Below, piece by piece: positions 5,401-31,140 of a stretch of 33,509 nucleotides of DNA. Origin of the DNA: Chitinophagaceae bacterium (GTDB taxonomy: Bacteria > Bacteroidota > Bacteroidia > Chitinophagales > Chitinophagaceae). Under the pieces are notes generated by a model, which searched no databases, was not told the DNA's origin, and saw nothing but the letters and a program-made list of their open reading frames with translations. The stretch spans positions 1 to 33,509 of the forward strand of contig JANXWM010000605.1 of the NCBI GenBank assembly GCA_025351145.1. The letters run 5' to 3'. Each line of letters starts with the position of its first letter. The first letter of the stretch is position 1. A program made the translations under genes and the position numbers.

Positions 5401-6742
5401 AAGTTGTAATGGCCGAACTGCTTAAACCACTACTGCTGCCGCTTACCCATGTATAATCATCGTAGTAAGTTTGCGTAAGTATAGTATAACCGCTTGACGG
5501 GGTTGGGTAGGTAACACTTGTACCTGAAAGGTTCTGGTGATAACTTCGGTTATTAGCCTCTGTCCATAACCCTGAGAGTACTGACCTGTTCAATGAATCA
5601 TAATCTGTATACAGCCATTTACCCTGTATCCTTAAACTGCTGTCCTGTGTCATCACTAACCTGTCCCTTATATCATATACCAGCCATACTTCTCCTGCGC
5701 CGGGTACACGTTTTACTATCATCCTGTTCCTGCTGTCGTATTCATAACTGAAGCAGAGGTCTTTGGCAATCTGGCTGCTTGCCCATATGCTGTTATCAAA
5801 AGCCCAGTTATTGGCTTTCAGCCAGTCTGTTGCTTTGGGTTGTATCACACACCGCAGGTTATTTAAATCATCATATACATAATAAGTGCAGAGCCAGCCC
5901 CATGAACCCGCAGAAGGCGTTGCTGCCAACTGTACCTTTTTTAAAATTACTTGCCCTTCTTTATCTTTATATTCCACTACTTTGTTGCCCTGTTCGTCAG
6001 TAGTTACAGTTTCGTATAAAAGCCCTGCACCATAACTTGCGGTGCTTGTTGGTACAGTGCCACCTGTTAAACTGATGTTCCATATACGTACACTGTCTAA
6101 TGCATCATTTACTAAATACTGCATACCCGTACCCACACCATCACCCACCCAGTTATTACCGGGAGGGTATGCTTTGGTTACCCGGTTCAGTTGTGATGCC
6201 TCAAAATCTGTTTGACCGTAGAAATATTTTTCGCCATTGGTAACATCGTTAGTAGGGTTATAGGTACCCTTCATAAAATTATCCTGCTCGGTAAAAGGGT
6301 CTGTTTTAAAATTACCGTTATTACTTGTACTTACAAATGGCATGTACTTAAATACCTCCCTGCCAAAGGCATCATACAATACCGGGCTTACCATATCAAA
6401 ACCATTGGGGCTTACTCCCTTTGCAACTGTTTGCAGTGGCCTGCCCAGCCCGTCAAAATACTGTGTACTTTGCTTAACTTCCTGTACCGTTCTTGTAGGG
6501 CCGTTAAGAAATGTATCGTTGATATATGGCTTTTCTGCTTCCCATACACGCACATAATTAACAGTAATACTGCTGCCATAAGCAGCCGGTAACGTGTTTA
6601 CTGTTCTTGTTCCTGCGCCCGGTACTGTAACAGTTGTAGGGATAATTGTTTGTGCATGCAACTTTGGTAAAAAGCACAACATTACACAGGCTATGCCAAC
6701 AGTTCTTTGCAGATATTTTAAGTAAGGGTATCGCATAAACAA
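2408..6742 (-). CDS. Secreted RHS/YD-repeat protein with DUF6443-like N terminus and variable C-terminal tip
   Basis: The protein has 1444 residues. A signal peptide ends near residue 30 (PKLHA, then QT). Residues about 60-200 match what I know of DUF6443, the N-terminal domain of many Bacteroidota RHS proteins ([23 protein letters not shown]). YD repeats such as YDAAGR, YDQNGN and YDGNGN fill about 200-850. The RHS core end is clear at about 1170-1240 ([19 protein letters not shown], then [10 protein letters not shown]). The last roughly 200 residues are the variable tip, where toxin domains usually sit. It contains GHELIEQ near 1354 and AHQDG about 19 residues later, a zincin-like arrangement with Glu in place of the second His of HExxH. 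Metallopeptidase activity is therefore uncertain. It shares a transcript with the genes on both sides. Confidence 0.88.
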
Positions 6743-6815
6743 TTTCTTTTTTATTGTATTATCTTAATCCGTTTTATCCCTATAATCCCCCAAAATCCAC
6801 GTTCAGACAAAAGCA

Positions 6816-7355
6816 TTACTGAAACATCCTGTTCAACACTTTATTGCTCCATTTCGATTCGGGTCCAAATACACCATGAAGTTCCCCTTGTTCATTGATA
6901 AAATACATTTCGCCCGGTCCGCCCACTTCTTCATCAAAATGGTTGTTCAGGCTGGTATTGGTGAGCCAGGAAAATAAAGGGTTTTGCAGTGTATCGGATG
7001 CTTTATGCGTGTACATACCTTGCGTAATAATAACGCTGCTGCTAAGCATGGATTGGTACCATTGTGGCAGTGCTGCCACAGTATCATCAGTATAACCATC
7101 TTCGTAAGAAGGTACTGTAATAACTGCAACCTGCCCCGCATTAGCTTCAGCAACAGAATCTATCCTGTACAGGTAAGCACTGTCCTCTGCTGTTTGTGAA
7201 GCAGGCAGCACAGCAATAAATATTTTCTTTCCCTGGTATTCGTTTAAAGAATGGGCGGTACCGGTAATACTTGTAAAACTATAGTCGTATAAACTCCCCG
7301 GTAAAACAAAACCCGAAAGAAAAACAATAGCTATCGTAAGAAATAAGAGTTTCAT
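6816..7355 (-). CDS. Exported glutathione-peroxidase-like (thioredoxin fold) protein lacking the catalytic Cys
   Basis: The 179-residue protein begins with a hydrophobic signal segment (LFLTIAIVFLSGFVLPG). The rest resembles the glutathione peroxidase family: LYDYSFTSITG, then LNEYQGKKIFIAVLPAS, and near the end a C-terminal GPx-like FINEQGEL..FGP segment. In active members a Cys or selenocysteine follows the strand that here ends LPASQ; no Cys is present there or elsewhere in the protein. Peroxidase activity is therefore unlikely. It lies between two large RHS-type genes, 15 bp downstream of the first, in the same operon. I infer an envelope role for export, folding or binding, not redox chemistry. 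The fold assignment is moderately sure. Confidence 0.68.
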   Translation of the reverse strand: MKLLFLTIAIVFLSGFVLPGSLYDYSFTSITGTAHSLNEYQGKKIFIAVLPASQTAEDSAYLYRIDSVAEANAGQVAVITVPSYEDGYTDDTVAALPQWYQSMLSSSVIITQGMYTHKASDTLQNPLFSWLTNTSLNNHFDEEVGGPGEMYFINEQGELHGVFGPESKWSNKVLNRMFQ

Positions 7356-7370
7356 AAACCTATTTTTATT

Positions 7371-10300
7371 TTATAAACTGGATTCAACCAAAAGGGTGTT
7401 ACAACTATTAGTATTTACGGTTATATTATGAACCGTCATGCCGCAATTGGTACTCAATGCACAAGTGGTAAATGCGTAACCAACATTGCCTGCTGTTCTG
7501 TTCACAATAAGATCATAAGTCCCGGAGGGCAATGTTACTATAAGGTTCCCTGTGGTGGGTACCGTAAATGCAGTTTGCTGCAGGGTTACAGTATTGGTAT
7601 AAGTTGCAGTAAAGCCTGAGAGGTTTAAAGAATTTGTTATAGTAACAGATACAGGCACCGCAACATCGCAATTGGCAGGCTGGCCTGCATAGTTGTAACA
7701 GAATTTTTTGATCACATTTTTATCCTGGTCTTTAATTAACCGCACCCTGCCGAAGGCATCATATTCAAAATAACTAATACGGTTGTTTACATCGCATTGG
7801 CTGGTCATGCCAATTAGAGGCTGATAAGTGTAGGTGGTCATTTGTGCATCTGAAGGGTACAAACGGACTTCGTCTATACTTCCAACGCCACCGGAATTTC
7901 CATTAATGGTAATTGTTGTAGCTGTAGGAACAACAGCGTATTCATAGTAAGTCCACCCATTAATAGTTTTGCCCATTTTATACGTATTTGTGCATCCGTT
8001 AATAGTATATAGTCCATGTTTGCTCCAGAAAGAAACAATATAGCTTTTGCCAATGGTTAAGCCTGACTTACTTACTTTGTTTGTAGCTGTAATATATAAA
8101 GCCTTTTTCCCTGTTGGTGCGGTTGCATCTGTATCCTGAAAGGCCGAAAAAGTCCAGTTCCCTTTGCCATCAGCTTCAAAAGAGGTATAAGCTACAGAAG
8201 AAGAATCAGCATTTATTATAGCAGCTATGGGATAAGAACTGGAATAATCCCAGATATAAGAATTTAATACATCAGCCATTTTATGCTGCTGTATCATATT
8301 TCCATATCCATCATATTTTAAAAACTCAACACGTTTTTCAGATGGGTTGCTGCTAATTTGTAATTCAATGCTTTCCGGTAGCGTAAGCCCATTTCCAAAT
8401 ACTTTATAGTTAGTTCTTGTTTTACTAATCTGGGCTCCGTTTCGGGAAGTTATCTGATCTATAACAGGGGTAAGCATGAACTTCGAAATCAAACTTTGCC
8501 TTGCTGTTTCTGCTGCTCCCGTTAGTACAATATCCTGTGGGTATTTAATATCAGTTTGCAGTGTTTCATTTTTACTGCTTTGCGTAACAGTACTTGTTAA
8601 TTGATAATGTCCATTTGATGTATCGTAATTGTAAGTATTAATATTCTGGACATAAGAAGATGGGGTATTTTGATCATATACTTTTGTTGTGTCAGACTGG
8701 AGATAATAAAACTCACTGATTGTTTTATATCCTGATACGTAATATGCATTTGCGGCTAAAGTAACCAACGGGCTAGCACATTGAAGAATTTGGATACCTG
8801 TTTCAACTGACAATCCATAACCCGCACTTGATTTTGCCCCAAAAGTATATTTATTGCTGTTAGACTTAACCGCTATAAAATTACCGCTTGAATTTTTATA
8901 TACTGTACTTTTCAAAAGCTGACCTCTTCGCCAATCGTAAGTGCAGGATGGCGGATAAGGACGATATTCTTTCAGGTCATCCGGAAAGTCCGTAGCCGTT
9001 GTATAAGAATACTCAGTTTTGCCGTTTTCTCCATTTTCACCTGCTAATTCTGTTACATTCTGGTATCCGATTGAAGAGCCCTGCGTTTGCAGCAGAGGGG
9101 TTAAAGGATAACTTCTAACTTGCGCATAATTTGTAGCCCCGCAACCTGATAATATTTCAAATACATTAGCATAGTGATAGGGATTATTTACCAATACCCC
9201 ACTTGAGGCTGTATCGTTAAATTTAGTATACAGGTATTTTTTTACAGAAGTACTGATATTGTCATTACTTGTGATCCGCTTTATGCGGAGTCCCCCGATG
9301 GTTTTGTTAACCATAGATTGGGAGCCACCATTTCCCTGAGGCGGGTATTCATTCCAGTTAAGGTCTAAGTAAAAAAGATATGATGCATTTGGGTATCCCT
9401 GAACAAGTTCTCCTTTCCCAACAATTTTGTAAGTGCCATTAGCCAGATCAACTGTAGATGTACCATCTTTGATATACTGGATTGGAAAAGATGTTCCGTT
9501 AATACCTTCTATTGAAGCGGTATAACAAGTAGAATAACCGCTTGGAGATATTTGGCAGCCAGGTGGTTGCGTATGACCCATTGCAATTGAAGAAACAGTA
9601 ACTCTTGTGGTTCCTCCGGGTACACCACCAGATGTTGCATAAGACACGGTAAATGTATCAGCTAAGGTTTGCCCCGTTAAATATTGAAGACTGGCATATT
9701 TTCCTGCGGGTGGAGTAGGTATACTGTTATCAGAATTAGAGGCGTAAACTTTATTTGCCTCATACTCAAACAATGAGTACCCTCCTGTAGGATATATTAT
9801 CTTTTTTAATACTCCGGCCATCATATATGATTCATCCGAATGCCTGTCTGCTCCAAAAATTGTTATTGTCCCGTAAGGCGGTGTAGTTATATAAAATGAT
9901 TGGGGAAGCACACTGTTAGGAACCCCGTTGTAGTACCCCCACAAGTCCTGCGAATTAATAGTGGTTCCATAAGGATCCGCATTGGGAAGTTGTGTTGTAT
10001 TATACTCAAATTTGTATTTATTTCCTGAAGCAGCATTTGTAGCTGAAAATTCTGCAAGGCTGTCTAAAGTTAAGCGTCCCCCGTTTACATAATCATAGTA
10101 AAAAACAAATTTTCTTAGCGGATTAATTAAATCAACATTACTAAAGATATTGACTGCACTCAAACTGGTATCACCTGGCAAATCCGTTCTCCTTGTCGTA
10201 GCATCGAAAGTAATTTTTCCATTAGCAGATGTTATAGATTTTAATTTGGGAACGGTCATAAAGTTAGTCACTACATTCTTATCAAAAGAAGGCAAATGGG

Positions 10301-11204
10301 CGGGTGGCTGAGAACCGCTTTCATCCAAAATGAAGTTTATTGTCTCTGCAGATTTATTATTATAATTATACGAAATGGTATTATAATCCAAGGTTATCAA
10401 ATCATTGTTTGGGCTGTATATCTCCATCAAATACCATCCGGTTGTGGTTATACCTGTTTGTGCCGCATTATCATTTTTTTCAATAGCTGTTTTTTGCCCG
10501 TCTAATGAATTGCCAAACACATATTTTACACCATCAGGAGTAGTCAGGGTCCACCTTGCAATTTGATTCGCATTCACGCCGGATATATATTGATATTCTA
10601 TTTTAAGCGCTTCAAGTGGGGAAACAACAAACTGCCCATTTTCATTCATGAAAAATTTTCCCGAGTATTTTCCAAAATTGAAATAAAAAATATCGGGTTC
10701 AGCATCGGTTACCTGATCTTTTACCTGGTTTAACATCTGCAAATCTGCCTGGTCAGCATTTCCTGCACCAATTAAATAACTTGTCGTGGGGTTCAGGTTA
10801 GCTATATATTTTTTAGCTAAAGGAACAATGGTACTCCTGTTGTTAAAGTAGCCAGTGGGAACATCATCTGGAAAACCCCTCACACTTCTTGTTATTACTC
10901 CGCCTGCATTTAAACTCCACCCTATTCCAACCCATGAAGCAATCTCTTCAACTTTTATACCTCCGGCATGGTAAGACAGGTTAATTGGTAATTCAAGGTC
11001 CCTCCCTTTTAAGGTGTATAAGGGAATACTTATGCTTGGTATGCCTGTATAAAGGCCTACCGGAATATCCCCGTATTTCCCCAGTGCTGCTGCATTTGGT
11101 GAAGGAGGTATAAATTTCTTTAAACCGGGAGTAGTTTGAGCACTGCCATTCAATACAAAAAGCAGATTAATGGCTATCACCAAATTGATAAACTTTTGTT
11201 TCAT
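7371..11204 (-). CDS. Large secreted YD-repeat (RHS-like) protein
   Basis: The protein has 1277 residues with a signal peptide cleaved near residue 22 (NGSA, then QT). The N-terminal segment (PPSPNAAALGKYGDIPV, then LPINLSYHAGGIKVEE and WVGIGWSLNAGGVITR) is typical of Bacteroidota proteins annotated as RHS repeat proteins and related to SpvB/TcdB-type shells. About residues 1005-1110 look like a carbohydrate-binding beta-sandwich module (TSFEADGKGNW... to IDEVRLYP). A YD repeat follows (YFEYDAFGRVRLIKDQD) and then a Cys-containing beta-rich tail. No toxin-like tip is seen, so it may be a scaffold or partner of the 1444-residue RHS protein. It is 15 bp from the genes on either side of it in the operon. 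Confidence 0.85.
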   Translation of the reverse strand: MKQKFINLVIAINLLFVLNGSAQTTPGLKKFIPPSPNAAALGKYGDIPVGLYTGIPSISIPLYTLKGRDLELPINLSYHAGGIKVEEIASWVGIGWSLNAGGVITRSVRGFPDDVPTGYFNNRSTIVPLAKKYIANLNPTTSYLIGAGNADQADLQMLNQVKDQVTDAEPDIFYFNFGKYSGKFFMNENGQFVVSPLEALKIEYQYISGVNANQIARWTLTTPDGVKYVFGNSLDGQKTAIEKNDNAAQTGITTTGWYLMEIYSPNNDLITLDYNTISYNYNNKSAETINFILDESGSQPPAHLPSFDKNVVTNFMTVPKLKSITSANGKITFDATTRRTDLPGDTSLSAVNIFSNVDLINPLRKFVFYYDYVNGGRLTLDSLAEFSATNAASGNKYKFEYNTTQLPNADPYGTTINSQDLWGYYNGVPNSVLPQSFYITTPPYGTITIFGADRHSDESYMMAGVLKKIIYPTGGYSLFEYEANKVYASNSDNSIPTPPAGKYASLQYLTGQTLADTFTVSYATSGGVPGGTTRVTVSSIAMGHTQPPGCQISPSGYSTCYTASIEGINGTSFPIQYIKDGTSTVDLANGTYKIVGKGELVQGYPNASYLFYLDLNWNEYPPQGNGGSQSMVNKTIGGLRIKRITSNDNISTSVKKYLYTKFNDTASSGVLVNNPYHYANVFEILSGCGATNYAQVRSYPLTPLLQTQGSSIGYQNVTELAGENGENGKTEYSYTTATDFPDDLKEYRPYPPSCTYDWRRGQLLKSTVYKNSSGNFIAVKSNSNKYTFGAKSSAGYGLSVETGIQILQCASPLVTLAANAYYVSGYKTISEFYYLQSDTTKVYDQNTPSSYVQNINTYNYDTSNGHYQLTSTVTQSSKNETLQTDIKYPQDIVLTGAAETARQSLISKFMLTPVIDQITSRNGAQISKTRTNYKVFGNGLTLPESIELQISSNPSEKRVEFLKYDGYGNMIQQHKMADVLNSYIWDYSSSYPIAAIINADSSSVAYTSFEADGKGNWTFSAFQDTDATAPTGKKALYITATNKVSKSGLTIGKSYIVSFWSKHGLYTINGCTNTYKMGKTINGWTYYEYAVVPTATTITINGNSGGVGSIDEVRLYPSDAQMTTYTYQPLIGMTSQCDVNNRISYFEYDAFGRVRLIKDQDKNVIKKFCYNYAGQPANCDVAVPVSVTITNSLNLSGFTATYTNTVTLQQTAFTVPTTGNLIVTLPSGTYDLIVNRTAGNVGYAFTTCALSTNCGMTVHNITVNTNSCNTLLVESSL

Positions 11205-11219
11205 TAATTACGGTTTATT

Positions 11220-12698
11220 TTAAAATGTATACCCGATTCTAAATTTTAAAGCTTGTCCGGCAGGTATCTGCTTTGTTGCAAGAAAGTCATATAATATCTG
11301 CATATTTCCTTGCTTCTTTCCAACCTTATATTTTTTACTTATTCCCATCAGTACACTGCGTTGCCAAACATCTACATTCTTTAAATAATTAAGATTGCTA
11401 AACCGTTGCAGGTAGTTATATTCAAATCCTCCCGTTATCCAGATACTGCCTTTTGCTTTAATATCTATATAACTTCTTAGGCCAATGCCTTCACTGGTAA
11501 AATGGATATTACTAAATCCGCTACCCCAGCCAAGTTTATAACTTGCACCAATGCCTATAATACTTTTGTCATTCAGTTTATATCCGGCAGTTAAAGCTAT
11601 GTCGCTGGTAACTGGTAACAGGTAGCGGCTCTTTTCGCTTTGAATATTAAAGCCATATTCAAACCTTTGTAAAAATGATTTTGTATGCTGGCTGTTAGGT
11701 TTAAAATCAGGCATCGTCATATCGCTGCTCCCTCCGCCTAATTTGTTCAGCTTATCTTTCAGAACACTCATTTGCTGTTGTGCAGCTCCCAATTGTTGCT
11801 GCATATACTGTTGAGGGTTCATGCCGCCTCCACCAGAAGCAATTGTATTACCTAAACGCTGTTGTACCTGCTGTTGTACTAATGTTCTTGTCTGTAATCC
11901 AACCAAAGCCTGCGGTGTACCATAGTTTTCAGGTGTAGGAAATAAAAAGGCTAAATAACTATGCTTCTGCATAAAGTTTTGAAAAGCTGGCAGGTTTCTT
12001 ACTGTAGCTAAAAGCTTTTCTTCCATCTTCTTTTTATCATGCAGTATTGCTTTGTACTCCGTTAAGCGTTGCTGGTAATAATATACTTCTTTATTATACC
12101 CAAGCAATTCTTTGGCAAAGCCGGTATTGGCAAGGGTTGCTTTCAGTGTTGCTTCTCTTTCTTTGATGAAGCTTTGTATATCATTGGCCTGTTGCAATCT
12201 TGCCTGTAGCTCCTGCAATTGGCTGCTTACCTCTTGTATCTGTTGTAATTTATCACCAGTGATTCCCTGTAGATTAAGATTGGGTTGATTAAGAAACCTC
12301 ATCAATGTTTGCATGCTGTCAATGCCGGGTATATATTCGGTTAAGGGATGTGCAATTGTTTTATTTACCGATAATGTTAGTTTAGCCTGTAGCTCCTGGT
12401 ATTTACTTTGTGTCTGTGAAAATAATTCCTTGGCTTTGGAACTGTCGACCCCCTGTAATTTGCTTTGCAGTGTTGCTTCTTTCTGCTGCATGCGTTTTAG
12501 CAGTTTCTCACTTTGTGATTGCACACTATTAGTGACCTTATTGTATTGGTTGGTGAGGGATGTAATGGATTTAGAAGATATGTTTTGAATTGATTGGGTA
12601 AGTTGTTTTTGTTGGGATTGCAGAGTGGTATCAATACCTTGTGCATGAGACAAAACACTGATTAGAAAGGTACAGGCAAGAGTTATAACGAACCGCAT
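11220..12698 (-). CDS. Coiled-coil plus beta-barrel envelope protein, first gene of the RHS operon
   Basis: An in-frame ATG at 12764 would give 514 residues. I prefer the ATG at 12698 because it starts directly with a signal peptide (MRFVITLACTFLISVLSHAQ), giving 492 residues. About the first 300 mature residues are Gln/Lys/Leu-rich and read as long coiled coils (repeated LQSQQKQLTQSIQ-like heptads). The last about 150 alternate polar and aromatic strands (ALTAGYKLNDKSIIGIGASYKLGWG, split by turns) and end in GYTF. A C-terminal aromatic residue is typical of outer-membrane barrels. It may anchor or export the two RHS-type proteins encoded behind it, 15 bp downstream. I know no named family for it. 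Confidence 0.75.
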   Translation of the reverse strand: MRFVITLACTFLISVLSHAQGIDTTLQSQQKQLTQSIQNISSKSITSLTNQYNKVTNSVQSQSEKLLKRMQQKEATLQSKLQGVDSSKAKELFSQTQSKYQELQAKLTLSVNKTIAHPLTEYIPGIDSMQTLMRFLNQPNLNLQGITGDKLQQIQEVSSQLQELQARLQQANDIQSFIKEREATLKATLANTGFAKELLGYNKEVYYYQQRLTEYKAILHDKKKMEEKLLATVRNLPAFQNFMQKHSYLAFLFPTPENYGTPQALVGLQTRTLVQQQVQQRLGNTIASGGGGMNPQQYMQQQLGAAQQQMSVLKDKLNKLGGGSSDMTMPDFKPNSQHTKSFLQRFEYGFNIQSEKSRYLLPVTSDIALTAGYKLNDKSIIGIGASYKLGWGSGFSNIHFTSEGIGLRSYIDIKAKGSIWITGGFEYNYLQRFSNLNYLKNVDVWQRSVLMGISKKYKVGKKQGNMQILYDFLATKQIPAGQALKFRIGYTF

Positions 12699-12754
12699 AG
12701 GGTTTAGTTTTGATTGCTTTCGGGCAGCAAGATAAATCATATTTGCTAGCTCAA

Positions 12755-12776
12755 CAATAGCCATTTATGGCTATTG
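12755..12776. repeat. Perfect palindrome at the head of the RHS operon
   Basis: CAATAGCCAT (12755-12764) and ATGGCTATTG (12767-12776) are perfect 10-bp arms separated by TT. It lies 57-78 bp upstream of the preferred start at 12698 and covers the alternative ATG at 12764. It could be an operator or a 5'-UTR hairpin. No U tract follows on either strand, which argues against a terminator. Confidence 0.6.
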
Positions 12777-12844: not shown

Positions 12845-15800
12845 TTATTTTTTATGTTTCTTTAAACTATTCAATACCACCTGTGCAACTGATGCCCGTT
12901 TCCGGTCCATTTCTTCAGTGGTAACTGCATCATAGGACACATTCACGCGATACCCTTTCATGATTTTTTCTTGTGGCACTTCTTTTTTTACAGACTGATC
13001 TAAAAAAGAAAAAAGTGCGTCAGGAGTGAAGAACTCCACGTGCCGCTTTTCAAAATCGGCTATACCAATACTGCATTTTTTCTTGATTTTTTCCAGTTGT
13101 TTTATATCCCCTGAAATTGAAACTACCATATCATACTTTGCCTGGATACATTTTGAAATATTGTGCATTTCCCACTCGGCATCAGTAGTGATACAGATTT
13201 CAACTGCAATAGTCTTCCCGTCTCTGGTAAGCAAGACATCAACCTGTCCACTGCCATCAGGGAGCCCCATTTCAATGACTGCGGTATAGCCACTGGCTTC
13301 TGCCATCTTCTTAATTAGTGTTTGTAAATAGCGATGGGTAGAGAGGTCTTTTTCTGGTTTTGGTGATTCAGGTTCAGGAAGTGGTTCAACGGGTATCATT
13401 TCTTTAGGAACTATTGGCTCAATAACTACTGGTTTTTCTATCGGTATTTTTGGTGCTTCCTTCACAATCACTTTCGGCTTTTCACTAATACCAGTTTCAA
13501 TATGTAATGATTCAAATAAAAGTTTTTCAACTTCCTGTTTTGGGGTGGCATACTGTACGCGGGTTAAGGCAATAACACTATCTATTTTTTTGGTTCTTTC
13601 ATCTTTTGAAACTGAGGGTAACGGCAAGGTATTGAGTGAACAATCATACTGCGGTTGTTCAATAGAAATGACTGCTTCACCGCGACCTAAGTTTTGTAAG
13701 TCGGTAAAATCGAAATGCGAAAAACCGTCCTGCAAATTCTTTGCATCCGGTTCACCCACCCGAAAGACAATCCGGTTATTTGCGTTGCTCAATACACTAT
13801 TTAATAACTCAGTGTCTTCGCGTTGTATTTGCTGCAAGTCCTGATGGGAAAGGGTGAGGCCCACATTGTATTTCCTAATGCCGCTCAGCATCTCTTTGAT
13901 CGAAGGTGTAATGAAATTGTGGAATTCATCTAAGTAGAGAAAGATCGGGTGCCGTGTTGCATGTTGTTGCCGCCTGAATATGGCCTGGTGGATTTTTGAT
14001 AATAAGAGTGACCCCAGCAAGAAACTATTCTCCATACCGATCAATCCCTGTGAGAGTTTGAACAAAACAATTTTGTTTGAATTAAGTAAGCTTTCAAAAT
14101 CAATCCCCTTGTTCTGAATGACCATGTTACGGATACTCTTGGGACGCAGGAAACTATCAAGTCTCGTGAGAATCGGTCCAATCGAATTTGATTTTAATAA
14201 GGGGAATTCTTTCTGCCAGTAGTAGAGTACGGTAGGGTCAGTGACGTTTTTCAAGAAGCTTTGCCGGAATTCTTTTTCAATCAGGAATCTGCGTAAATCA
14301 TTTAACGTGCCGCCGCCTTTATTTTCAAGTATGGCCTGAATAGCATTGCCAAATACTGCACTCATTTGGTCTCCCCATGATGTTGCATATCTTCTGAAGG
14401 AAGCCACTAAATCAGAGGAGAGTATTTCCCGTTCAATATCCGTGTGGGCTTGTAAGATATTAAGCCCGATTGGAAATTCAGTATCTGCGGGGTCAAGCAA
14501 TACCATATCCTTCATGCGGTCTTCCGGTATCAGTGCTATCACATCATCAATTAAATCGCCGTGTGGGTCAAACAAGACTAAGCCAAGCCCCTTTTGTATA
14601 TCCTGTAGTATCAGGTTGGCAATGAGTGTTGATTTGCCGGTGCCGGTTGCACCAATAATATGCGTATGCTTGCATCTGTCTTCAACACTAACGGTCACAT
14701 TAGTTATAATGCCATTGTGCTGATTTTCACCAAGTATGAACGCTTTGTTTCTGGCAATGCCCGGAACTTCTTTTGTTTTGCGTGAACCTCCAAAGAGTTT
14801 TTTGGAAACGATATTCTCCGATGGAAAATGAAGTATTGTTGATAATTCATCAGTATTTAAAAGCATGCCTAAGCGATGCGATTCCCTCAAATAAATATCA
14901 TCAAGTCTTGTTTGGAAATCATAGGCTTCAGTTTGCAGCGGTATCAATTGATTATGTGTTCCCCTTGTACCATTCATTAATGCATAGCTCAGTTTCTCTA
15001 AAATCTTTGCTGCTTCATGTTGATAGGCTGCTTGTCCAAAGGCACGAACAGTGACCCCAAACAGTGGACTTTGTACTTTTTCACTGGCAATTTTTGGAGC
15101 TATAGGATCATCAGCAAAAAAGGAACTGCCGTCTGTTAGTGTTACGCCACTGATGATACTGTTTCTCCACTGATTCACTGTACCCTGAAAGAGAATTTGG
15201 ATACCTGCCTGCTCTCCGAATTGTAGCTGCTCTAAAACCCCAAATACACCCGTTAAGGGATCAATAGCGAAGTTTTTTGGGGTGTGTAGAGGGCGCACAA
15301 ATTCTTCTTTTAATCCAAAATCAATAAGTGCAATATGACCTTCCTCTTGCAGAATATTTTCAATGTAATTGTCTGAGCAAATGATGCTACAATCAGGAAA
15401 ATAAGAGATGATATATGTTTCAATAGTAGCGATATGAGCTTCATCACACACAAACTGCAGAATGATTTCTGTTCCCGTACCAATGATTTCAAAAGAGATG
15501 GGAGTATTGCAGGATGAAAGCATGATAATGAGGGCCTTCATTTTCTCCGGCGTTATCTTCCGTTCTTTGGGCAGCTTTACTTGCAGTGCTTTGAGTGAGG
15601 GTTCTTCGTCATAGATGAAGGGCTGTAATTCCTGATAGTCTAATACATTCACTTCATAGCTTGGTATGAGCTGTTTTGTTTTAAAGTTTTCCAAAAACCT
15701 GCTCACCCAGGTGTGTCGTTTGCCATCATCAATATACTCTGGCTGGTGGCCATGCCGAAAAAAAGGAATAAATGGTGGTTCCAAATAGACAGGGAGTTCT

Positions 15801-15871
15801 GAGACATACCATCCCCTGCCCCGGTATTCCCAGGTATAATACTGATAGGTGAAATATTCGGCTGCGGTCAT
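12845..15871 (-). CDS. TraG/TraD/HerA-type DNA-translocating ATPase fused to a C-terminal PD-(D/E)XK-like domain
   Basis: The protein has 1008 residues. About 1-390 are an unrecognised N-terminal region. The ATPase core follows: Walker A (GATGTGKSTL) at about 405, a conserved LFDPHGDL segment, and Walker B (FLYLDEFHNF) at about 643 with the sensor-like LTLSHQDLQQI. This is the pattern of type IV coupling proteins and HerA translocases. A Pro/Glu-rich linker (about 805-845) leads to a domain with VDVLL near 877 and IAVEICI near 889, the D...ExK layout of restriction-endonuclease-fold nucleases, but with Cys where Lys is usual. The nuclease call is an inference. It is the downstream partner of the 161-residue gene (9 bp gap). 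Coupling to DNA transfer or packaging is likely, but no relaxase or VirB4 gene is nearby. Confidence 0.82.
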   Translation of the reverse strand: MTAAEYFTYQYYTWEYRGRGWYVSELPVYLEPPFIPFFRHGHQPEYIDDGKRHTWVSRFLENFKTKQLIPSYEVNVLDYQELQPFIYDEEPSLKALQVKLPKERKITPEKMKALIIMLSSCNTPISFEIIGTGTEIILQFVCDEAHIATIETYIISYFPDCSIICSDNYIENILQEEGHIALIDFGLKEEFVRPLHTPKNFAIDPLTGVFGVLEQLQFGEQAGIQILFQGTVNQWRNSIISGVTLTDGSSFFADDPIAPKIASEKVQSPLFGVTVRAFGQAAYQHEAAKILEKLSYALMNGTRGTHNQLIPLQTEAYDFQTRLDDIYLRESHRLGMLLNTDELSTILHFPSENIVSKKLFGGSRKTKEVPGIARNKAFILGENQHNGIITNVTVSVEDRCKHTHIIGATGTGKSTLIANLILQDIQKGLGLVLFDPHGDLIDDVIALIPEDRMKDMVLLDPADTEFPIGLNILQAHTDIEREILSSDLVASFRRYATSWGDQMSAVFGNAIQAILENKGGGTLNDLRRFLIEKEFRQSFLKNVTDPTVLYYWQKEFPLLKSNSIGPILTRLDSFLRPKSIRNMVIQNKGIDFESLLNSNKIVLFKLSQGLIGMENSFLLGSLLLSKIHQAIFRRQQHATRHPIFLYLDEFHNFITPSIKEMLSGIRKYNVGLTLSHQDLQQIQREDTELLNSVLSNANNRIVFRVGEPDAKNLQDGFSHFDFTDLQNLGRGEAVISIEQPQYDCSLNTLPLPSVSKDERTKKIDSVIALTRVQYATPKQEVEKLLFESLHIETGISEKPKVIVKEAPKIPIEKPVVIEPIVPKEMIPVEPLPEPESPKPEKDLSTHRYLQTLIKKMAEASGYTAVIEMGLPDGSGQVDVLLTRDGKTIAVEICITTDAEWEMHNISKCIQAKYDMVVSISGDIKQLEKIKKKCSIGIADFEKRHVEFFTPDALFSFLDQSVKKEVPQEKIMKGYRVNVSYDAVTTEEMDRKRASVAQVVLNSLKKHKK

Positions 15872-15880
15872 TGGAGCTAA

Positions 15881-16366
15881 TTACACAACACTTTCTTTGA
15901 TCTGCCGTTCCAACTCGCTTAATCTCGCTCCTTTTTCTTCCATGACGGCATCAATAGCTTCTAAGACACATTGATGGACACAGGCACGGAACATGCTTTC
16001 TTCATCTGCTTCAAAGAATGACCGTTTGGCAGCCCGTTCATTTAAGTAATCACCTGCCTTAGTGAATTTTAATAGTGACCGCATAGCACTTTCTGTTTCG
16101 TAGAGCCACCAGGATATGAAAAAATCTTTGCCAAAGGGTGCGGCGCAAATATCAAAGACCAAATCAAAGTATTTGACGCGCAAATATTCCCGTGAAGCTG
16201 AAAACATACCTCCTTCTTTATGCTTGACCCGTTCTATTTTGGTGTCTGGCATTTGATGGGATTTGATGATTTCAGTTACCTGAGAATAGAATTTGTCGGA
16301 AGACATATTGAAGTACGGGAAGAGGTGCCCCCAATGAGAGAGCATTTGGGAAATAGGGATGGCCAT
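15881..16366 (-). CDS. Conserved-looking hypothetical protein, operon partner of the large ATPase
   Basis: The 161-residue soluble protein has no signal peptide or membrane helix and I do not recognise the family. It contains FDLVFDICAAPFGKDFFISWW, split by a likely strand-turn-strand, and a C-terminal helical part ending in a heptad-like stretch (EEKGARLSELERQIKE). The stop is 9 bp before the start of the TraG/HerA-like ATPase, so the two are probably co-translated and may form a complex. Confidence 0.72.
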   Translation of the reverse strand: MAIPISQMLSHWGHLFPYFNMSSDKFYSQVTEIIKSHQMPDTKIERVKHKEGGMFSASREYLRVKYFDLVFDICAAPFGKDFFISWWLYETESAMRSLLKFTKAGDYLNERAAKRSFFEADEESMFRACVHQCVLEAIDAVMEEKGARLSELERQIKESVV

Positions 16367-17635: not shown

Positions 17636-18943
17636 TTAATCAAATAAACCAGGCTCTCTTTGTTCAACATTTTTGGGTTGATAATTTTCAAGTATTGCTT
17701 CCTCAACCAGTGCTTTTTCACTGCCATATTTCTGTCTGGAATGTGCAATCACTAATTCTTTACTTGATTTATTTTGTTTGTGTGGTGGCAGGGTTAGCGC
17801 ACTAAAAGGTTTTGAAGTTGCGCCATCAATCATCAGTTTAATATACATGGCATATTTGGGAAGGTTCACAAAATCATTCTCACTAAATGGTGGATGAAAT
17901 TCTTTAACAAGATACTTTGCATCTTCTGCACCAATCCGAAAAGAGATGAGCGTGCCTACGTTTCCAAATATTGCAGCACGTATTTTTTCATGAATTTGGT
18001 CAATGTATTGGTGGGTTAAAAATAATGATAGCTTATACTTTCTTGCTTCGGCTAAGATGTCTGCTAAAGATAATGAGATGAATGAATGCATTTCGTCAAC
18101 ATACAGATAGAATGGAATTCTGTCAGCTTCTTTTTGAGTTGAACGATGCAATGCTGCTAATTGAATAGCGGTCACCAACATGCTGCCCATAATGGAAGAT
18201 GCGTCTTCACCAATTTCACCTTTAGATAAATTTACAATGAGTATTTTTCTTTCATCTAACACCGCTTGCATATTAAAACTGGTGGCCTTTTGTCCAACAA
18301 TATTGCTCAATGGAATACTGGTTATAAATATGCCGGTCTTATTAAGTATTGGAGTAATGGCTTCTGATTTTAATGCGGGGCTATATTTATCAAATTCATT
18401 CTTCCAGAATGAAATAATGTGTTGATTGGTTACATAGGTCAAAACATTATTTCTAAAATAGAAGTTGGTTAACAAGGGTTGGATGTCGAGCAAGGTGGCA
18501 CCAGGGTATTCGAGGAGGGTTAGCAGTGCATAGCGGAGGATATATTCCAATCGTGGCCCCCAGGAATCAGCCCATATCTTTCTGAAGGTTGATATCAGAC
18601 CTGCTGCCACTAAATGATGATCTGCAGGGTTAATACCACTTAAGGGATTGAATGCAATCGCATGTTCAACATCTTTTGGATTGAAATAGATGACATCAGC
18701 TATTCTATTTTCCGGGATATAGTGTAAAAGCGTTTCAGCAATGTCTCCATGCGGGTCTATGACGCAAAGTCCATTACCTCTTTCAATATCTGAAATAGCC
18801 ATGTTTAATAACAGGGTTGACTTCCCTACTCCCGTCTTTCCAATAACATAGATATGACCAAAGCGGTCAGCATCTTTAATGCCAAAGGGTTGATGTGTCT
18901 CTCTCCAATCAGTTATGCCAATGGGGGTGAGTTCTGACATCAA
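17636..18943 (-). CDS. Compact TraG/TraD/HerA-like ATPase
   Basis: The 435-residue protein is essentially only the ATPase core of the same family as the 1008-residue protein. Walker A (GKTGVGKSTL) lies at about residues 33-42. It is followed by LCVIDPHGDIAETLL, and Walker B (FYLYVDEMHSF) lies near 281 followed by LSLFLTHQYIDQI. It has no N-terminal membrane anchor, unlike classical VirD4/TraD, and no nuclease tail. Encoding a short and a long member of the same translocase family in one block suggests division of labour, for example hetero-hexamers or two transfer steps; this is inference. Its start is 124 bp from the divergent small gene at 19068, and a partial copy of the shared regulatory element lies in between. 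Confidence 0.85.
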   Translation of the reverse strand: MMSELTPIGITDWRETHQPFGIKDADRFGHIYVIGKTGVGKSTLLLNMAISDIERGNGLCVIDPHGDIAETLLHYIPENRIADVIYFNPKDVEHAIAFNPLSGINPADHHLVAAGLISTFRKIWADSWGPRLEYILRYALLTLLEYPGATLLDIQPLLTNFYFRNNVLTYVTNQHIISFWKNEFDKYSPALKSEAITPILNKTGIFITSIPLSNIVGQKATSFNMQAVLDERKILIVNLSKGEIGEDASSIMGSMLVTAIQLAALHRSTQKEADRIPFYLYVDEMHSFISLSLADILAEARKYKLSLFLTHQYIDQIHEKIRAAIFGNVGTLISFRIGAEDAKYLVKEFHPPFSENDFVNLPKYAMYIKLMIDGATSKPFSALTLPPHKQNKSSKELVIAHSRQKYGSEKALVEEAILENYQPKNVEQREPGLFD

Positions 18944-19294: not shown

Positions 19295-20848
19295 ATGAAA
19301 TACGCTATTTATTGCAGGAAATCAACAGATACGGAAGACAAACAGGTACTGTCCCTTGAATCCCAGGAACAGGAGCTTGTAACACTGGCAAAAAAGGAAG
19401 ATTTAGAAGTCACCTTAATATTAAAAGAAAAGATGTCTGCTAAAGAACCTGGCCGTCCCATCTTTAATAAATTACTTGCCGCACTGAATAAGAAAAAAAT
19501 TGACGGTATTCTTTGCTGGAAAATTGATCGCCTCACGAGAAACCCCATTGACGGAGGGCAAATTCAATGGATGATGCAATCAGGGAAAATACAGTGTATC
19601 AAGACATTTGAAAGAAGCTATTATCCTTCTGATAATGTGCTGCTCATTAATATTGAGCAAGCGATGGCAACGCAATATATTAGAGATTTGAGCACCAATG
19701 TAAAGCGCGGAAATCGGGCAAAACTGGAACGCGGAGAATGGCCTAATCGGGCACCCTTTGGATATGTAAATGATAAAGCAGCTAAAACTATTATCGTTGA
19801 TAAAAGGGCGGCTAAATATGTGGTGCGAATTTTTCAATTATATGCAACTGGCGGATATACACTTAAAGAAATAACCAATACACTTTACCAGGAAGGCTTA
19901 CGAACAAAGGGCGGAAATAAAATGGGTAAAAGTCATATTCACCAAATTCTGTTTAATAAATTTTATTGTGGATTGATGGAAAAAGAAGTCAAAACATATC
20001 AGGGTACACATAAAGCGCTTATTTCAATTTCTCTCTATAACCAAGTCCAGGATATGCTGTTAGGCAGGCAACACCCCCGCCCCAAAAAACACGTATATGC
20101 AGCCAGAGGGTTCCTTAAATGTGCCTCCTGCGGTTGTATGTTAACGGGTGATACCAAGAAAGGGTATATCTATTACTACTGTACCAATGGCAAAGGGAAT
20201 TGTGAGCAGCACAAAAAATATTTGCGCTCTGAGGAAGTGGACAAGTTGATTGGAGATGTCTTACTTGAATTAAAATTTGACCTCACCGATATAGAGTTAG
20301 CAAGTCAGGCTTATGCACAGAAAAATCAGGCGCAAGGCAATACTATGCAATCCATATTGGAGAAGCTCACCATTGAGGTAAATATGCTGTTAGACAAAGA
20401 GTCTATGCTGGTTGATGGGTTTAGCTCTAAGATTATACGGGAAGAGGTCTATACCGCAAAAATGAAAGAAATAGAATATAAGCGATTAGAACTGAACCAA
20501 CAGATACGGCAAATCGAAGGAAAAAATGGAAAATCAGCAATTACTTTCGAACAGATTAAAAGTGTGTTTTTAAACGGTAATAAAGCCGCAGAATTGTATT
20601 CTACAGGTTCTGAGGAAGGAAAAAGAAATGTACTAATTAGTTTACTTTCGAACATCCATATTGAAAACCAAAAAGTCCTTAGTTACCAATTCAAAAGCCC
20701 ATTTGACTTACTGGCTAAAACGCCTAAAAATGCCAATTTATTTGCAAAGCTGACACTGATAGACGCTATCCGAAGTGCACTTCTCATAAGTTCTGATTGT
20801 TCAATCATAGAAATGCAGGATTATAGGTTATTACGAGAAACAGGATAA
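19295..20848 (+). CDS. Large serine recombinase (resolvase/invertase family integrase)
   Basis: The 517-residue protein has all parts of a large serine recombinase. An N-terminal catalytic domain starts YCRKSTD (nucleophile Ser10) with the conserved WKIDRLTRNP at about 75-84. A recombinase domain (about 150-255) begins at APFGYV and includes LYQEGLRTKGG. A zinc ribbon (about 274-307) has CASCGC followed by two further Cys. A coiled-coil region lies at about 340-420. These enzymes integrate and excise elements by strand exchange between short attP and attB sites with a 2-bp core, so it is the likely mobility enzyme of the block. I could not locate att sites; they need comparison with an empty site. 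Confidence 0.93.
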   Translation: MKYAIYCRKSTDTEDKQVLSLESQEQELVTLAKKEDLEVTLILKEKMSAKEPGRPIFNKLLAALNKKKIDGILCWKIDRLTRNPIDGGQIQWMMQSGKIQCIKTFERSYYPSDNVLLINIEQAMATQYIRDLSTNVKRGNRAKLERGEWPNRAPFGYVNDKAAKTIIVDKRAAKYVVRIFQLYATGGYTLKEITNTLYQEGLRTKGGNKMGKSHIHQILFNKFYCGLMEKEVKTYQGTHKALISISLYNQVQDMLLGRQHPRPKKHVYAARGFLKCASCGCMLTGDTKKGYIYYYCTNGKGNCEQHKKYLRSEEVDKLIGDVLLELKFDLTDIELASQAYAQKNQAQGNTMQSILEKLTIEVNMLLDKESMLVDGFSSKIIREEVYTAKMKEIEYKRLELNQQIRQIEGKNGKSAITFEQIKSVFLNGNKAAELYSTGSEEGKRNVLISLLSNIHIENQKVLSYQFKSPFDLLAKTPKNANLFAKLTLIDAIRSALLISSDCSIIEMQDYRLLRETG

Positions 20849-22358: not shown

Positions 22359-23258
22359 TTAAGAAATAATGCGATTTTTTTTAAGGTTGCGCCTTATTTC
22401 ATTAAAAGTCGTTTCTATTTTATCGCCTTCAAAATTAATGCACTGTAGCCCTGCTAAATTTGAAATTTCTTCAGATATATTTTCTTTTAAAATAATGACC
22501 TTATCAAATCCTAATTTGCCCTGAAATAATCCAGCTTCATGAATCACATTTTGACGTGCAATAAATTTACCATCAGCTAACTCGTCTTCAGCTGTAAATA
22601 TTAAGATTGCAAATACTGTTTCATTTAAAAATTCATCAAGAATTCTTATTATTGAATCGCCTGTTCTGGATTCTTTCTCAAAATACACAGTTTCCAATTC
22701 TAAATCGTTATCCAAAAAAAGTTGAATAGCTTGCCAAAGTTTACTCCGTCCGTGCCCAATAAATATTTTATTTTTTTTATTGCTCAAAGTTCCATTAGCC
22801 GATATTTTATTATCTTCTGAATGGGTAACAGCACTTTGATCGAATAATATTACGCTAGATAAAATACCACTTACTTTCTGTAATTGCACTGCCCCTGTTT
22901 TTACAGCATCATTAATGCTTCTGTATAAAAAAGTGCGACCATTAGTAATATGAGCAACTCTTTCAGCTTTTCCAGAAGTAACAAAATAAATCTTAAGAGA
23001 TGAGAACTCCCTCTCAAGTACTTCGGCCCATTCCAGTCCCAATAAACGATCATCTACAACTAATTCTTCACTGTCGGAACCATATTGACGAATATGTATC
23101 CAGGTACAGACTAGTTGATCAGGATGAAGTTGTGAGAGAATTTGCTTATAGTGCTCGGTTCCCCAGCATAAAATTGGATACTTTCCTTCTAGCCTAGTCG
23201 TGATAGTATTCTTGAAGTTTTCTTTTTCATCAATTATGATATGAAGAAATCTTTCCAT
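22359..23258 (-). CDS. TIR-like effector (Cap12/Pycsar-effector type TIR domain), second gene of the defence operon
   Basis: The 299-residue protein has an unrecognised N-terminal half (about 1-150). The C-terminal TIR-like domain (about 163-295) begins with KIFIGHGRSKLWQAI and SRTGDSII, then FAILIFTAEDEL, the signature RQNVIHEAGLFQGKLG at about 232-247, and a final VIILKE strand. This matches the family 'predicted nucleotide-binding protein containing TIR-like domain'. Its studied members are NAD+-consuming effectors of CBASS and Pycsar-type immunity. I infer NAD+ cleavage on activation. The start codon lies inside the end of the 1709-residue gene (29-bp overlap), so the two are translationally coupled. 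No cyclase gene is present, so activation must come from the giant partner. Confidence 0.82.
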   Translation of the reverse strand: MERFLHIIIDEKENFKNTITTRLEGKYPILCWGTEHYKQILSQLHPDQLVCTWIHIRQYGSDSEELVVDDRLLGLEWAEVLEREFSSLKIYFVTSGKAERVAHITNGRTFLYRSINDAVKTGAVQLQKVSGILSSVILFDQSAVTHSEDNKISANGTLSNKKNKIFIGHGRSKLWQAIQLFLDNDLELETVYFEKESRTGDSIIRILDEFLNETVFAILIFTAEDELADGKFIARQNVIHEAGLFQGKLGFDKVIILKENISEEISNLAGLQCINFEGDKIETTFNEIRRNLKKNRIIS

Positions 23259-28897: not shown

Positions 28898-29182
28898 ATG
28901 GAGATAGGTCGGTTTCCTAACAAGTTAAAAAAGTATCGAAGCATCACCGGGTATTCGCAAAAGAAAGTGGCGCAGTTGCTTGGTTTGAAAGATACCAGCC
29001 TCATTTCCCGATGGGAAAAAGGAGATTCGATACCAGGTACAGCGCATATATTTTATCTCAGCCGAATATACCACACCCTGCCACATATTCTTTTACATTC
29101 TTTCTGGAGCAGTATACAACCGGAAGAATACTTGTTGACTCAGGATGAGTCATTTAATACTAACGAAGCAATGAATCTATGA
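28898..29182 (+). CDS. Small XRE-family regulator
   Basis: The 94-residue protein has an HTH domain at about residues 8-62 with YSQKKVAQLLGLKDTSLISR and WEKGDSIPG, related in layout to the XRE protein at 20929. Its C terminus is short and acidic. It follows a conserved copy of the 43-bp element by 32 bp, exactly as its relative does, which supports joint or cross regulation. It is monocistronic and followed by a hairpin terminator at 29214-29237. It probably binds operators of the element. Confidence 0.86.
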   Translation: MEIGRFPNKLKKYRSITGYSQKKVAQLLGLKDTSLISRWEKGDSIPGTAHIFYLSRIYHTLPHILLHSFWSSIQPEEYLLTQDESFNTNEAMNL

Positions 29183-29388: not shown

Positions 29389-29628
29389 ATGTATAGTGAT
29401 TATGATCCACATGAAATAAAACTCGCCCATGAAATCTCGGAAACGCTCAATGACCAGAACTCCCTGGCACTCCACCTGCAGTATGTGCGCAAGTTCAAAG
29501 AAGGGTATCTGCGAAAGATTCTCAACAAAGTGATGTCGCTTGATGAAAAGAAGATTCGGAAAAACAGAGCAGCACTGTATACCTTTTTAGTTAACCAGGG
29601 TGCAAGCCATGGCAGTGCTGGGGATTAG
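29389..29628 (+). CDS. Small basic helical protein overlapping the RuvC-fold gene
   Basis: The 79-residue protein is rich in charged helices. The part LALHLQYVRKFKEGYLRKIL, then DEKKIRKNRAALYTFLV, resembles the C-terminal helical tail I associate with plasmid and phage DNA-binding or replication proteins in which 'R-x-x-x-A-L-F' follows a Lys/Arg stretch. That likeness is from memory and unverified. It overlaps the next gene by about 20-29 bp and follows iteron-like repeats, so the two genes form a small operon. A role in element DNA maintenance is a reasonable inference. Confidence 0.68.
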   Translation: MYSDYDPHEIKLAHEISETLNDQNSLALHLQYVRKFKEGYLRKILNKVMSLDEKKIRKNRAALYTFLVNQGASHGSAGD

Positions 29629-30082
29629 TACGAACACACGGCTCCTGGGGTTGGCAATTATCAATAGGAATGGTTTAGCAGAGTACTCAATTCGTCTGTA
29701 TAAATCTTCCTGGTCGCCGTCGAAAGCAAACCTGATGATCACCAGCCTGGAGCCGTGTGTGCGGAGATACTCTATCAAAAAAGTTGTTTTGTCAATACCG
29801 CCTGTACATCACCAAACAAAAGAATTCAATAATCTGATTTCTTGTTTCAAAGCATACTTCGCAGAGTTGCATATCCCGGTGTACACAGAAACAGGTGTAG
29901 CACTGAATCGACTTTGTTTGGAGCATGGCAAGAAAACGAAAAAAGCCATCATGAAATCGCTGGTTGAACGATTCCCTGAATTGCGCTTATGTTATCAAAA
30001 GGAACTGCGGAATAAAAACAAATATTATGTGAAGTTATTTGAGGCAGTTGGGGTGGCAGTCCTCCATGAAACAGTGAAATAA
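29609..30082 (+). CDS. RuvC/RNase H-fold protein with an altered first catalytic position
   Basis: From the ATG at 29609 the protein has 157 residues (a GTG at 29600 would add three). The N-terminal VLGISTNTRLLGLAII aligns with the RuvC opening strand (usual GIDPGTxxxG), but the first Asp is Ser. VVLSIPPVHH marks the next strand, where family members have an acidic residue, and the C-terminal part has FPELRLCYQKELRNKNKYYVKLFEAVG. RuvC-type proteins cleave Holliday junctions or other branched DNA. The loss of the first carboxylate suggests a non-catalytic or altered enzyme. A terminator follows. Confidence 0.68.
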   Translation: MAVLGISTNTRLLGLAIINRNGLAEYSIRLYKSSWSPSKANLMITSLEPCVRRYSIKKVVLSIPPVHHQTKEFNNLISCFKAYFAELHIPVYTETGVALNRLCLEHGKKTKKAIMKSLVERFPELRLCYQKELRNKNKYYVKLFEAVGVAVLHETVK

Positions 30083-30222: not shown

Positions 30223-31140
30223 ATGCAAACAAACAACACGCGTGATGTGTACACGCTGGTGACGAACCAAATCATTGCACAATTAGAAAAGGGTGTAATC
30301 CCCTGGCGCAAGCCCTGGAAAGAAGCGGGCATGCCGCAGAACCTGGTTTCTAAACGGCCATACCGCGGTATCAATCTCTGGCTCCTGGCATGTTTAGGAT
30401 ATACCACGAATCTCTTTCTGACCCATAACCAGCTGACGCAAATTGGTGGCAAGGTGAAGAAGGGTGAAAAGGGCCATTTAGTGGTTTTTTGGAAAGTGGT
30501 TGATAATACAAAGGAAGAAAAAGAAGCAGCAACGGATACAGCAAAGAAAACAACCTTGCTGCGGTATTACTGGGTGTTTAACGTGGAGCAATGTCAAGAC
30601 ATCACCGGCTACCTCATTGAATCTCCTGAGCAGTTTAATCACGTGATTTTGCCCTGCGAAAATGTGGTATCAAGCATGCCCCATCAACCGGCCATCCAGT
30701 TCAAAGAACCTGATGCCTATTACCATCCCGGCAAAGATTTCATCAACATGCCGAAGATGAAAACGTTTATCAATTCAGAAGCCTATTATGCAACACTTTT
30801 CCATGAGCTGGTACACAGTACCGGACACAAAAGCCGGTTGGATCGCAAAGAAGTGCAGTCCATGACACCCTTTGGATCAGACATTTATTCAACCGAAGAA
30901 ATTGTTGCTGAGCTGGGTACCTGTTATCTGACATCTCTCACTGGTATTGCACCAATGACGTTTGAGAACAATGCTGCCTATATCCAAGGCTGGATTGAAC
31001 GGTTACAAAATAACCCCAGTGTCATTGTCTATGCCTCTACGCAAGCGCAAAAAGCTACAGATTATATCTTGAATGTGCAGCCGGAAGAAACGGAAAGTGA
31101 GGTGACAGAATCAGATGCGACGGTTGAAGCGACTGCCTAA
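30223..31140 (+). CDS. ardC: ArdC-like antirestriction protein (ssDNA-binding domain plus zincin domain)
   Basis: The 305-residue protein has the two-domain layout of ArdC. The N-terminal domain (about 1-130) carries IIAQLEKGVIPWRKPW, then RPYRGINLWLL, and KKGEKGHLVVFWK, the ArdC ssDNA-binding signature. The C-terminal zincin domain has TLFHELVHSTGHKSRLDR at about 190-207, the HExxH motif, followed by STEEIVAELGTCYL with the third-ligand Glu. ArdC proteins protect incoming single-stranded element DNA from host restriction during transfer. The gene follows a copy of the shared element and is closed by a terminator at 31158-31187. The acidic tail (EETESEVTESDATVE) is unusual only in length. Confidence 0.9.
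   Translation: MQTNNTRDVYTLVTNQIIAQLEKGVIPWRKPWKEAGMPQNLVSKRPYRGINLWLLACLGYTTNLFLTHNQLTQIGGKVKKGEKGHLVVFWKVVDNTKEEKEAATDTAKKTTLLRYYWVFNVEQCQDITGYLIESPEQFNHVILPCENVVSSMPHQPAIQFKEPDAYYHPGKDFINMPKMKTFINSEAYYATLFHELVHSTGHKSRLDRKEVQSMTPFGSDIYSTEEIVAELGTCYLTSLTGIAPMTFENNAAYIQGWIERLQNNPSVIVYASTQAQKATDYILNVQPEETESEVTESDATVEATA

Follow-up and report, generated by a model that had tools for sequence, protein, structure and literature searches.

Within a 33,509-nucleotide contig from a Chitinophagaceae bacterium, analysed here at its full length and referred to as the window, a single gene encodes both an ATPase of a DNA-translocase type and a C-terminal domain with a predicted nuclease fold. The coordinates of this gene, its parts and its main neighbours are collected in Table 1. 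An earlier, sequence-only reading had drawn the limits of the open reading frame exactly and had given no strand; the gene lies on the minus strand. The same reading had proposed a TraG/HerA-type ATPase core followed by a Pro/Glu-rich linker and a further domain, and this order agrees with the Pfam matches and with the position of the linker.

Table 1. The translocase-nuclease fusion gene, its parts and its recurrent neighbours in the window.
Feature	Position	Strand	Description or basis
Translocase-nuclease fusion gene	12845..15871	-	1008 aa from ATG; relatives in genome, viral-contig and Bacteroidota whole-genome searches
N-terminal region, residues 1-380 (~380 aa)	14732..15871	-	no Pfam match
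TrwB/TraG/HerA-type ATPase core, residues 389-709	13745..14707	-	Pfam
Pro/Glu/Lys-rich linker, about residues 790-842	13346..13504	-	sequence; variable in homologue alignment
Restriction-endonuclease-fold domain, residues 840-963	12983..13354	-	fold model, Foldseek, residue conservation
Codon of D878	13238-13240	-	
Codon of E891	13199-13201	-	
Codon of C893	13193-13195	-	
Codon of K907	13151-13153	-	
Basic C-terminal tail, residues 964-1008	12848..12982	-	KGYRVNV ... RASVAQVVLNSLKKHKK
Conserved partner gene, family F1	15881..16366	-	161 aa; 9 bp upstream of ATPase gene
Second, shorter TraG-like ATPase	17636..18940	-	434 aa; 33% identical to fused core, no nuclease domain
Large serine recombinase	19295..20848	+	Resolvase + Recombinase + zinc ribbon
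Small HTH gene	28898-29182		recurrent with F5
79-aa gene	29389-29628		recurrent with F5
Family F5 protein	29609..30082	+	RuvC-like, inferred from relatives; recurrent neighbour
ArdC-type antirestriction protein	30223..31140	+	ArdcN + MPTase-PolyVal; also in the island of G002

Four Pfam families match the ATPase core, all above their curated cut-offs: TrwB_AAD_bind (E 9.6e-13), DUF87/HerA (6e-9), T4SS-DNA_transf and TraG-D_C. A Walker A motif, GATGTGKS, lies at residues 407-414 and an acidic motif, YLDEF, around residues 646-650, so that the fused protein has the P-loop core with both motifs by which the TrwB/TraG/HerA translocase superfamily is recognized. The region that precedes the core is kept across full-length homologues and is partly common to TraG-like ATPases of Patescibacteria. 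It also occurs alone, as a 359-aa frame, at one locus (L009).

From its letters, the C-terminal domain had been described as having a restriction-endonuclease layout, with VDVLL followed by IAVEICI and with Cys in place of Lys. Both motifs are present, at residues 877-881 and 888-894, placing D878 and E891 13 residues apart. A fold of another kind had been named beforehand as a reason to abandon the idea. The AlphaFold2 model, built from a 32-sequence alignment, has the order helix, three strands, helix, strand with a core pLDDT of about 97, and a Foldseek comparison with the PDB returned mainly restriction-endonuclease-fold enzymes, four of the matches having E <= 0.001. These matches include AF1548, the small subunit of R.BspD6I, the repair endonuclease 2vld, Bax1, Can2, EcoT38I, Hjc and R2 retrotransposon proteins. 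By sequence, the domain has no credible Pfam match, with weak hints of CoiA_nuc and Tox-REase-9, and its profile found no match among PDB sequences.

The conservation of individual residues carries the assignment further. The Asp/Glu pair, whose loss from homologues would likewise have counted against the idea, is kept: D878 in motif II and E891 in motif III are invariant in 37/37 fused copies, as are E867, E901, N904 and K907, while H846 is kept in 36/36 and C908 in 36/37. Since the fused homologues are ~30-65% identical to the window copy within this domain, the invariance of six residues in all 37 indicates that the VDVLL/IAVEICI layout exceeds chance. The proposed exchange of Cys for Lys holds in part. 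In the window C893 does occupy the position of the motif lysine, but this is not a feature of the family, in which position 893 is S in 21 copies, C in 8, T in 4, and K, H, G and A in one each. Thus S, C or T is found in 33/37 copies and the motif III lysine in 1/37, the single copy (L090) with a canonical E-I-K. Cysteine as a catalytic substitute for lysine was ruled out, position 893 being unconserved.

Some families of the PD-(D/E)XK class are known to read (D/E)x(D/N/S/C/G) in motif III, their basic residue having migrated into the motif IV helix (PMC1913061). In the fused proteins E901, N904 and K907 follow one another with three-residue spacing in the helix after the motif III strand, and in the predicted model the invariant K907 is placed in this helix after strand 3, where it would serve as the migrated basic residue. 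Because position 893 varies and K907 does not, this reading is preferred over a cysteine variant, and the domain fits a migrated-lysine form of PD-(D/E)XK with predicted catalysis. DUF506, DUF790 and DUF1626 offer a parallel, in that all or some of their members have a motif III devoid of lysine and keep the basic residue of the motif IV helix, as here (PMC1913061). They are different proteins, and that work describes no fusion of them to a translocase of this kind.

A nuclease fold could also be retained for purposes other than cutting, with the domain binding DNA and the ATPase serving excision, partition or replication of an island. This would account for the missing motif III lysine in 36/37 copies, for the excisionase-type HTH_17 domain that stands in place of the basic tail in three relatives (L072, L085 and L147), and for the large serine recombinase that starts directly downstream of the fused gene, at 11-169 bp, in seven copies (L077, L079, L082, L083, L088, L148 and G347). 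It is harder to reconcile with the full retention of D878, E891, E867, E901, N904 and K907 across a divergent family, which is difficult to explain without catalysis or metal binding, or with the canonical E-I-K of L090, and we consider it improbable.

The gene upstream of the fused ATPase appears to be a constant companion. Its family was found in 32/36 loci and, among 34 tabulated fused copies, 31 are preceded by it, read from the same strand, in 30 cases within about 50 bp and in L082 at 902 bp; three have no detected partner, at least one of these lying at a contig edge. In most partner homologues the N-terminus is hydrophobic or a hydrophobic stretch is inserted internally, which predicts that they are usually membrane-anchored. 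The copy in the window has neither of these stretches and no obvious transmembrane segment. The partner has no credible Pfam match. Its predicted model combines a mixed beta-sheet with helices and, in a fold search, weakly resembled BamC, StfQ, DcrB and START-like folds, no match reaching E <= 0.001.

Further from the fused gene, a survey of the 25 most frequent neighbour families identified Resolvase and Recombinase as the commonest Pfam families. About 14 loci contain, besides the fused gene, a shorter, nuclease-less ATPase. On a Sulfitobacter plasmid (NZ_CP081110.1; L151), a relative of the short ATPase lies near a serine recombinase in a stretch from which the fused gene is absent, so the short ATPase and recombinase may form a module of their own as well. 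Other genes in the surroundings are more varied. The window at 22359-28359 (minus strand) holds a CAP12/Pycsar-type TIR protein (299 aa) that overlaps a 1709-aa gene of no credible family match; together the two genes may form a defence system. A block at 2408-12764 (minus strand) adjoins the fused gene and encodes a DUF6443 RHS-type protein (1444 aa) and proteins of 179, 1277 and 514 aa; the block adjoins the fused gene in G002 too, a genome of the same genus. Another contig of the window's genome (C493; L003) has a 464-aa gene related to the RHS block together with a decayed fragment of the C-terminus of the fused ATPase. In the G002 island (L153:14027-17511), a run of small genes resembles, by eye, a ubiquitin-like/E2/JAB/E1 cluster, the ThiF match of its last gene being weak.

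Such surroundings raise the main rival explanation, in which the partner and the ATPase-nuclease are island cargo that recognize and degrade incoming phage or plasmid DNA, like HerA-nuclease pairs. In PADLOC the fused protein matches mad8 from the MADS defence system best (2.6e-24) and HerA, DndH and SspH less strongly; the window has its CAP12/Pycsar TIR-domain gene, and neighbouring loci include DNA methylases, DndB, AAA_13/AAA_21 and JAB/ThiF genes. The PADLOC matches are, however, confined to the ATPase core, which is common to conjugative coupling proteins, and a search of ten window proteins for other mad genes gave mad8 on the two ATPases and otherwise a single weak mad3 match, also on the ATPase core. 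Furthermore, the defence genes differ from locus to locus, whereas the partner and fused gene form the constant set and the serine recombinase is the most recurrent neighbour. We therefore regard defence as rather unlikely. The sequence-only reading had left a choice between cutting of the element's own DNA for transfer and degradation of invaders, and the genomic setting favours element mobility.

The suggestion that the gene lies in a mobile block is borne out by its relatives, which belong to islands with serine recombinases; several of these islands interrupt comM, a transformation gene of the host. At eight of the loci that carry a fused copy, comM is broken at one exact point, between MNP and CPCG. 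For example, G002 carries the fused gene in a 42.4-kb island that splits comM (C1, about 59,737-102,166): the junction falls after the MNP codons and before CPCGYYN, a serine recombinase abuts the C-terminal half of comM, and the flanks, when joined, align gap-free to the intact comM of G000 with 481/609 bases identical. In G084 both ends also lie at this break point (C18, 18,437-67,718), and two such comM insertions are seen there side by side. One island end was placed at the break point in L077, L148, L076, L078, L090 and G143/L045. The same point is broken in L053 (G018), where a decayed stand-alone copy of the domain (L053:8176-8952), with F at the position of E891, lies beside the broken comM and an RHS gene. 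The break, next to serine recombinases, recurs in several phyla, and TTGCGTTGCC or its complement GGCAACGCA is found at the ends of several islands.

For the island in the window itself no end was found, and a search of the window with the comM-end motif gave a chance-level match. Its genome has an intact comM on one contig (C704) and a second, partial comM on another (C614), and its contig C737 carries a recombinase 67% identical to the comM-adjacent one. Mobile elements inserted in comM are known in other bacteria and have been read as blocking transformation (PMC4774983). Mobile elements are known to conflict with natural transformation, and the shared break point links the present family to this conflict (PMC4774983).

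The proposed search for the same fusion elsewhere, conducted in genome and viral collections and Bacteroidota whole genomes, reached six phyla. Full-length fused copies come from Bacteroidota, Acidobacteriota, Planctomycetota, Verrucomicrobiota and Patescibacteria, and Ignavibacteria contribute a partial one at a contig edge. The family is rare: of 396 genomes drawn from across the window's phylum, nine contain the domain, and in seven of these it is fused to this ATPase family. Its tree largely tracks the phyla and has long branches, and for these reasons the fusion looks old and long-range transfer is not evidently frequent. Many ATPases of Patescibacteria match the N-terminal region and core and not the C-terminal domain. 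Cultured isolates carrying the family include Lacibacter luteus, Mucilaginibacter phenanthrenivorans and Mesoflavibacter zeaxanthinifaciens. Scans of viral collections identified three viral-labelled contigs with the fusion, one of which (L148) has a comM junction and so resembles an island more than a phage. As a separate observation, a different HerA-type ATPase (L064, a 689-aa open frame) has at its C-terminus a related domain whose E-x-E motif lies in EVETGRSD; the same domain is found in a frame of 201 aa (L065).

Genes for conjugation were looked for in the islands and in their hosts. The relaxase family PF03432 and the VirB4/TraG family PF19044, by which a classical ICE is recognized, are absent from seven island-bearing host genomes; PF19044 was found in 7/14 control genomes. 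PF13814 is absent from G000 and G002, and no relaxase or mating-pore genes were seen among the window open reading frames scanned by Pfam or in the scanned part of the G002 island. The ComEC-type channel family is present in 8/8 genomes tested but also in 10/14 controls, and is weak evidence. These results bear on a further explanation, that an ordinary conjugative element uses the fused protein as its coupling protein and has its remaining parts outside the regions read. Its best ATPase matches are indeed type IV coupling proteins, a nuclease-less relative in Embleya adjoins PrgI-family and ATP-binding proteins, and typical companions of conjugation occur in the window (ArdC) and in the G002 island (SSB). 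Already weakened by the absence of both families from the seven genomes and from the scanned window and G002 regions, this explanation is very improbable.

Our main proposal is that a translocase-nuclease processes and moves island DNA, akin to TdtA and NurA of ICETh1, and we judge the chances of this to be evenly balanced. The fused protein would be a TrwB/TraG/HerA-class DNA translocase with its own PD-(D/E)XK-fold nuclease, the catalytic lysine of which would have shifted from motif III (E-x-K to E-x-C/S/T) to K907 in the motif IV helix. The partner, for which a membrane anchor is predicted in most relatives, probably serves as a dock for the ATPase ring, and the two would be a core part of islands integrated by serine recombinases. 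The ring would pump DNA, for export or for transfer from cell to cell, and the nuclease may nick or trim it at the same time. Support from this analysis comes from the fold prediction, the conserved residues, the gene pairing, the island setting and the absence of two conjugation families from seven hosts. Catalytic activity, membrane docking, and the direction and purpose of DNA movement are what we infer, and the suggested role in transfer draws on genomic setting and analogy. A more specific version is unlikely: the fused translocase-nuclease and its membrane partner would be a relaxase-free DNA export machine by which comM-breaking islands pass DNA to competent neighbours.

Several known systems resemble this arrangement in part. 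Coupling proteins of the TrwB/TraG/VirD4 type share the ATPase core, as seen in the TrwB_AAD_bind and TraG-D_C matches. Unlike them, the window protein has no obvious transmembrane N-terminus, has a conserved extra N-terminal region and a C-terminal nuclease-fold domain, and is accompanied by no mating-pore genes of the families tested. In MOBC relaxases (TraX, MobC), a restriction-endonuclease-related domain takes part in conjugative DNA processing (PMC12857230). Here such a domain is fused to the ATPase; likenesses are a Replic_Relax protein near the fused gene in L072 and a protein annotated as replication-relaxation directly downstream of the ATPase homologue in Embleya. Kinship of the domain itself with Replic_Relax was unsupported, with an hhalign probability of 0.2 percent in a low-power comparison with four Replic_Relax-type proteins only. 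HerA-NurA likewise couples a hexameric-type ATPase to a nuclease, and among PDB sequences the core matches HerA (4d2i) best. By comparison, the core described here scores better as TrwB/TraG, the nuclease is fused and is not identified as NurA, and in the place of a separate NurA partner the neighbouring gene belongs to family F1.

Among islands without a relaxase or mating pore, ICETh1 of Thermus is the one case found in which movement between cells has been worked out. How such islands move can be tested directly with the present family, a candidate machine of few parts that occurs in six phyla and in cultured isolates. DNA donation by ICETh1 of Thermus thermophilus requires both the ATPase TdtA and the NurA-like nuclease next to it (PMC5365140, PMC7767461). 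The systems share a mobile island, a site-specific recombinase, a ring-type translocase and a nuclease in one operon, and a restriction-modification enzyme alongside (PMC5365140, PMC7767461). ICETh1 has a separate NurA and an island in a tRNA gene, whereas the family described here has its PD-(D/E)XK-fold domain on the translocase chain, another partner and a serine recombinase. The likeness to TdtA drawn here is one of ATPase superfamily and of setting.
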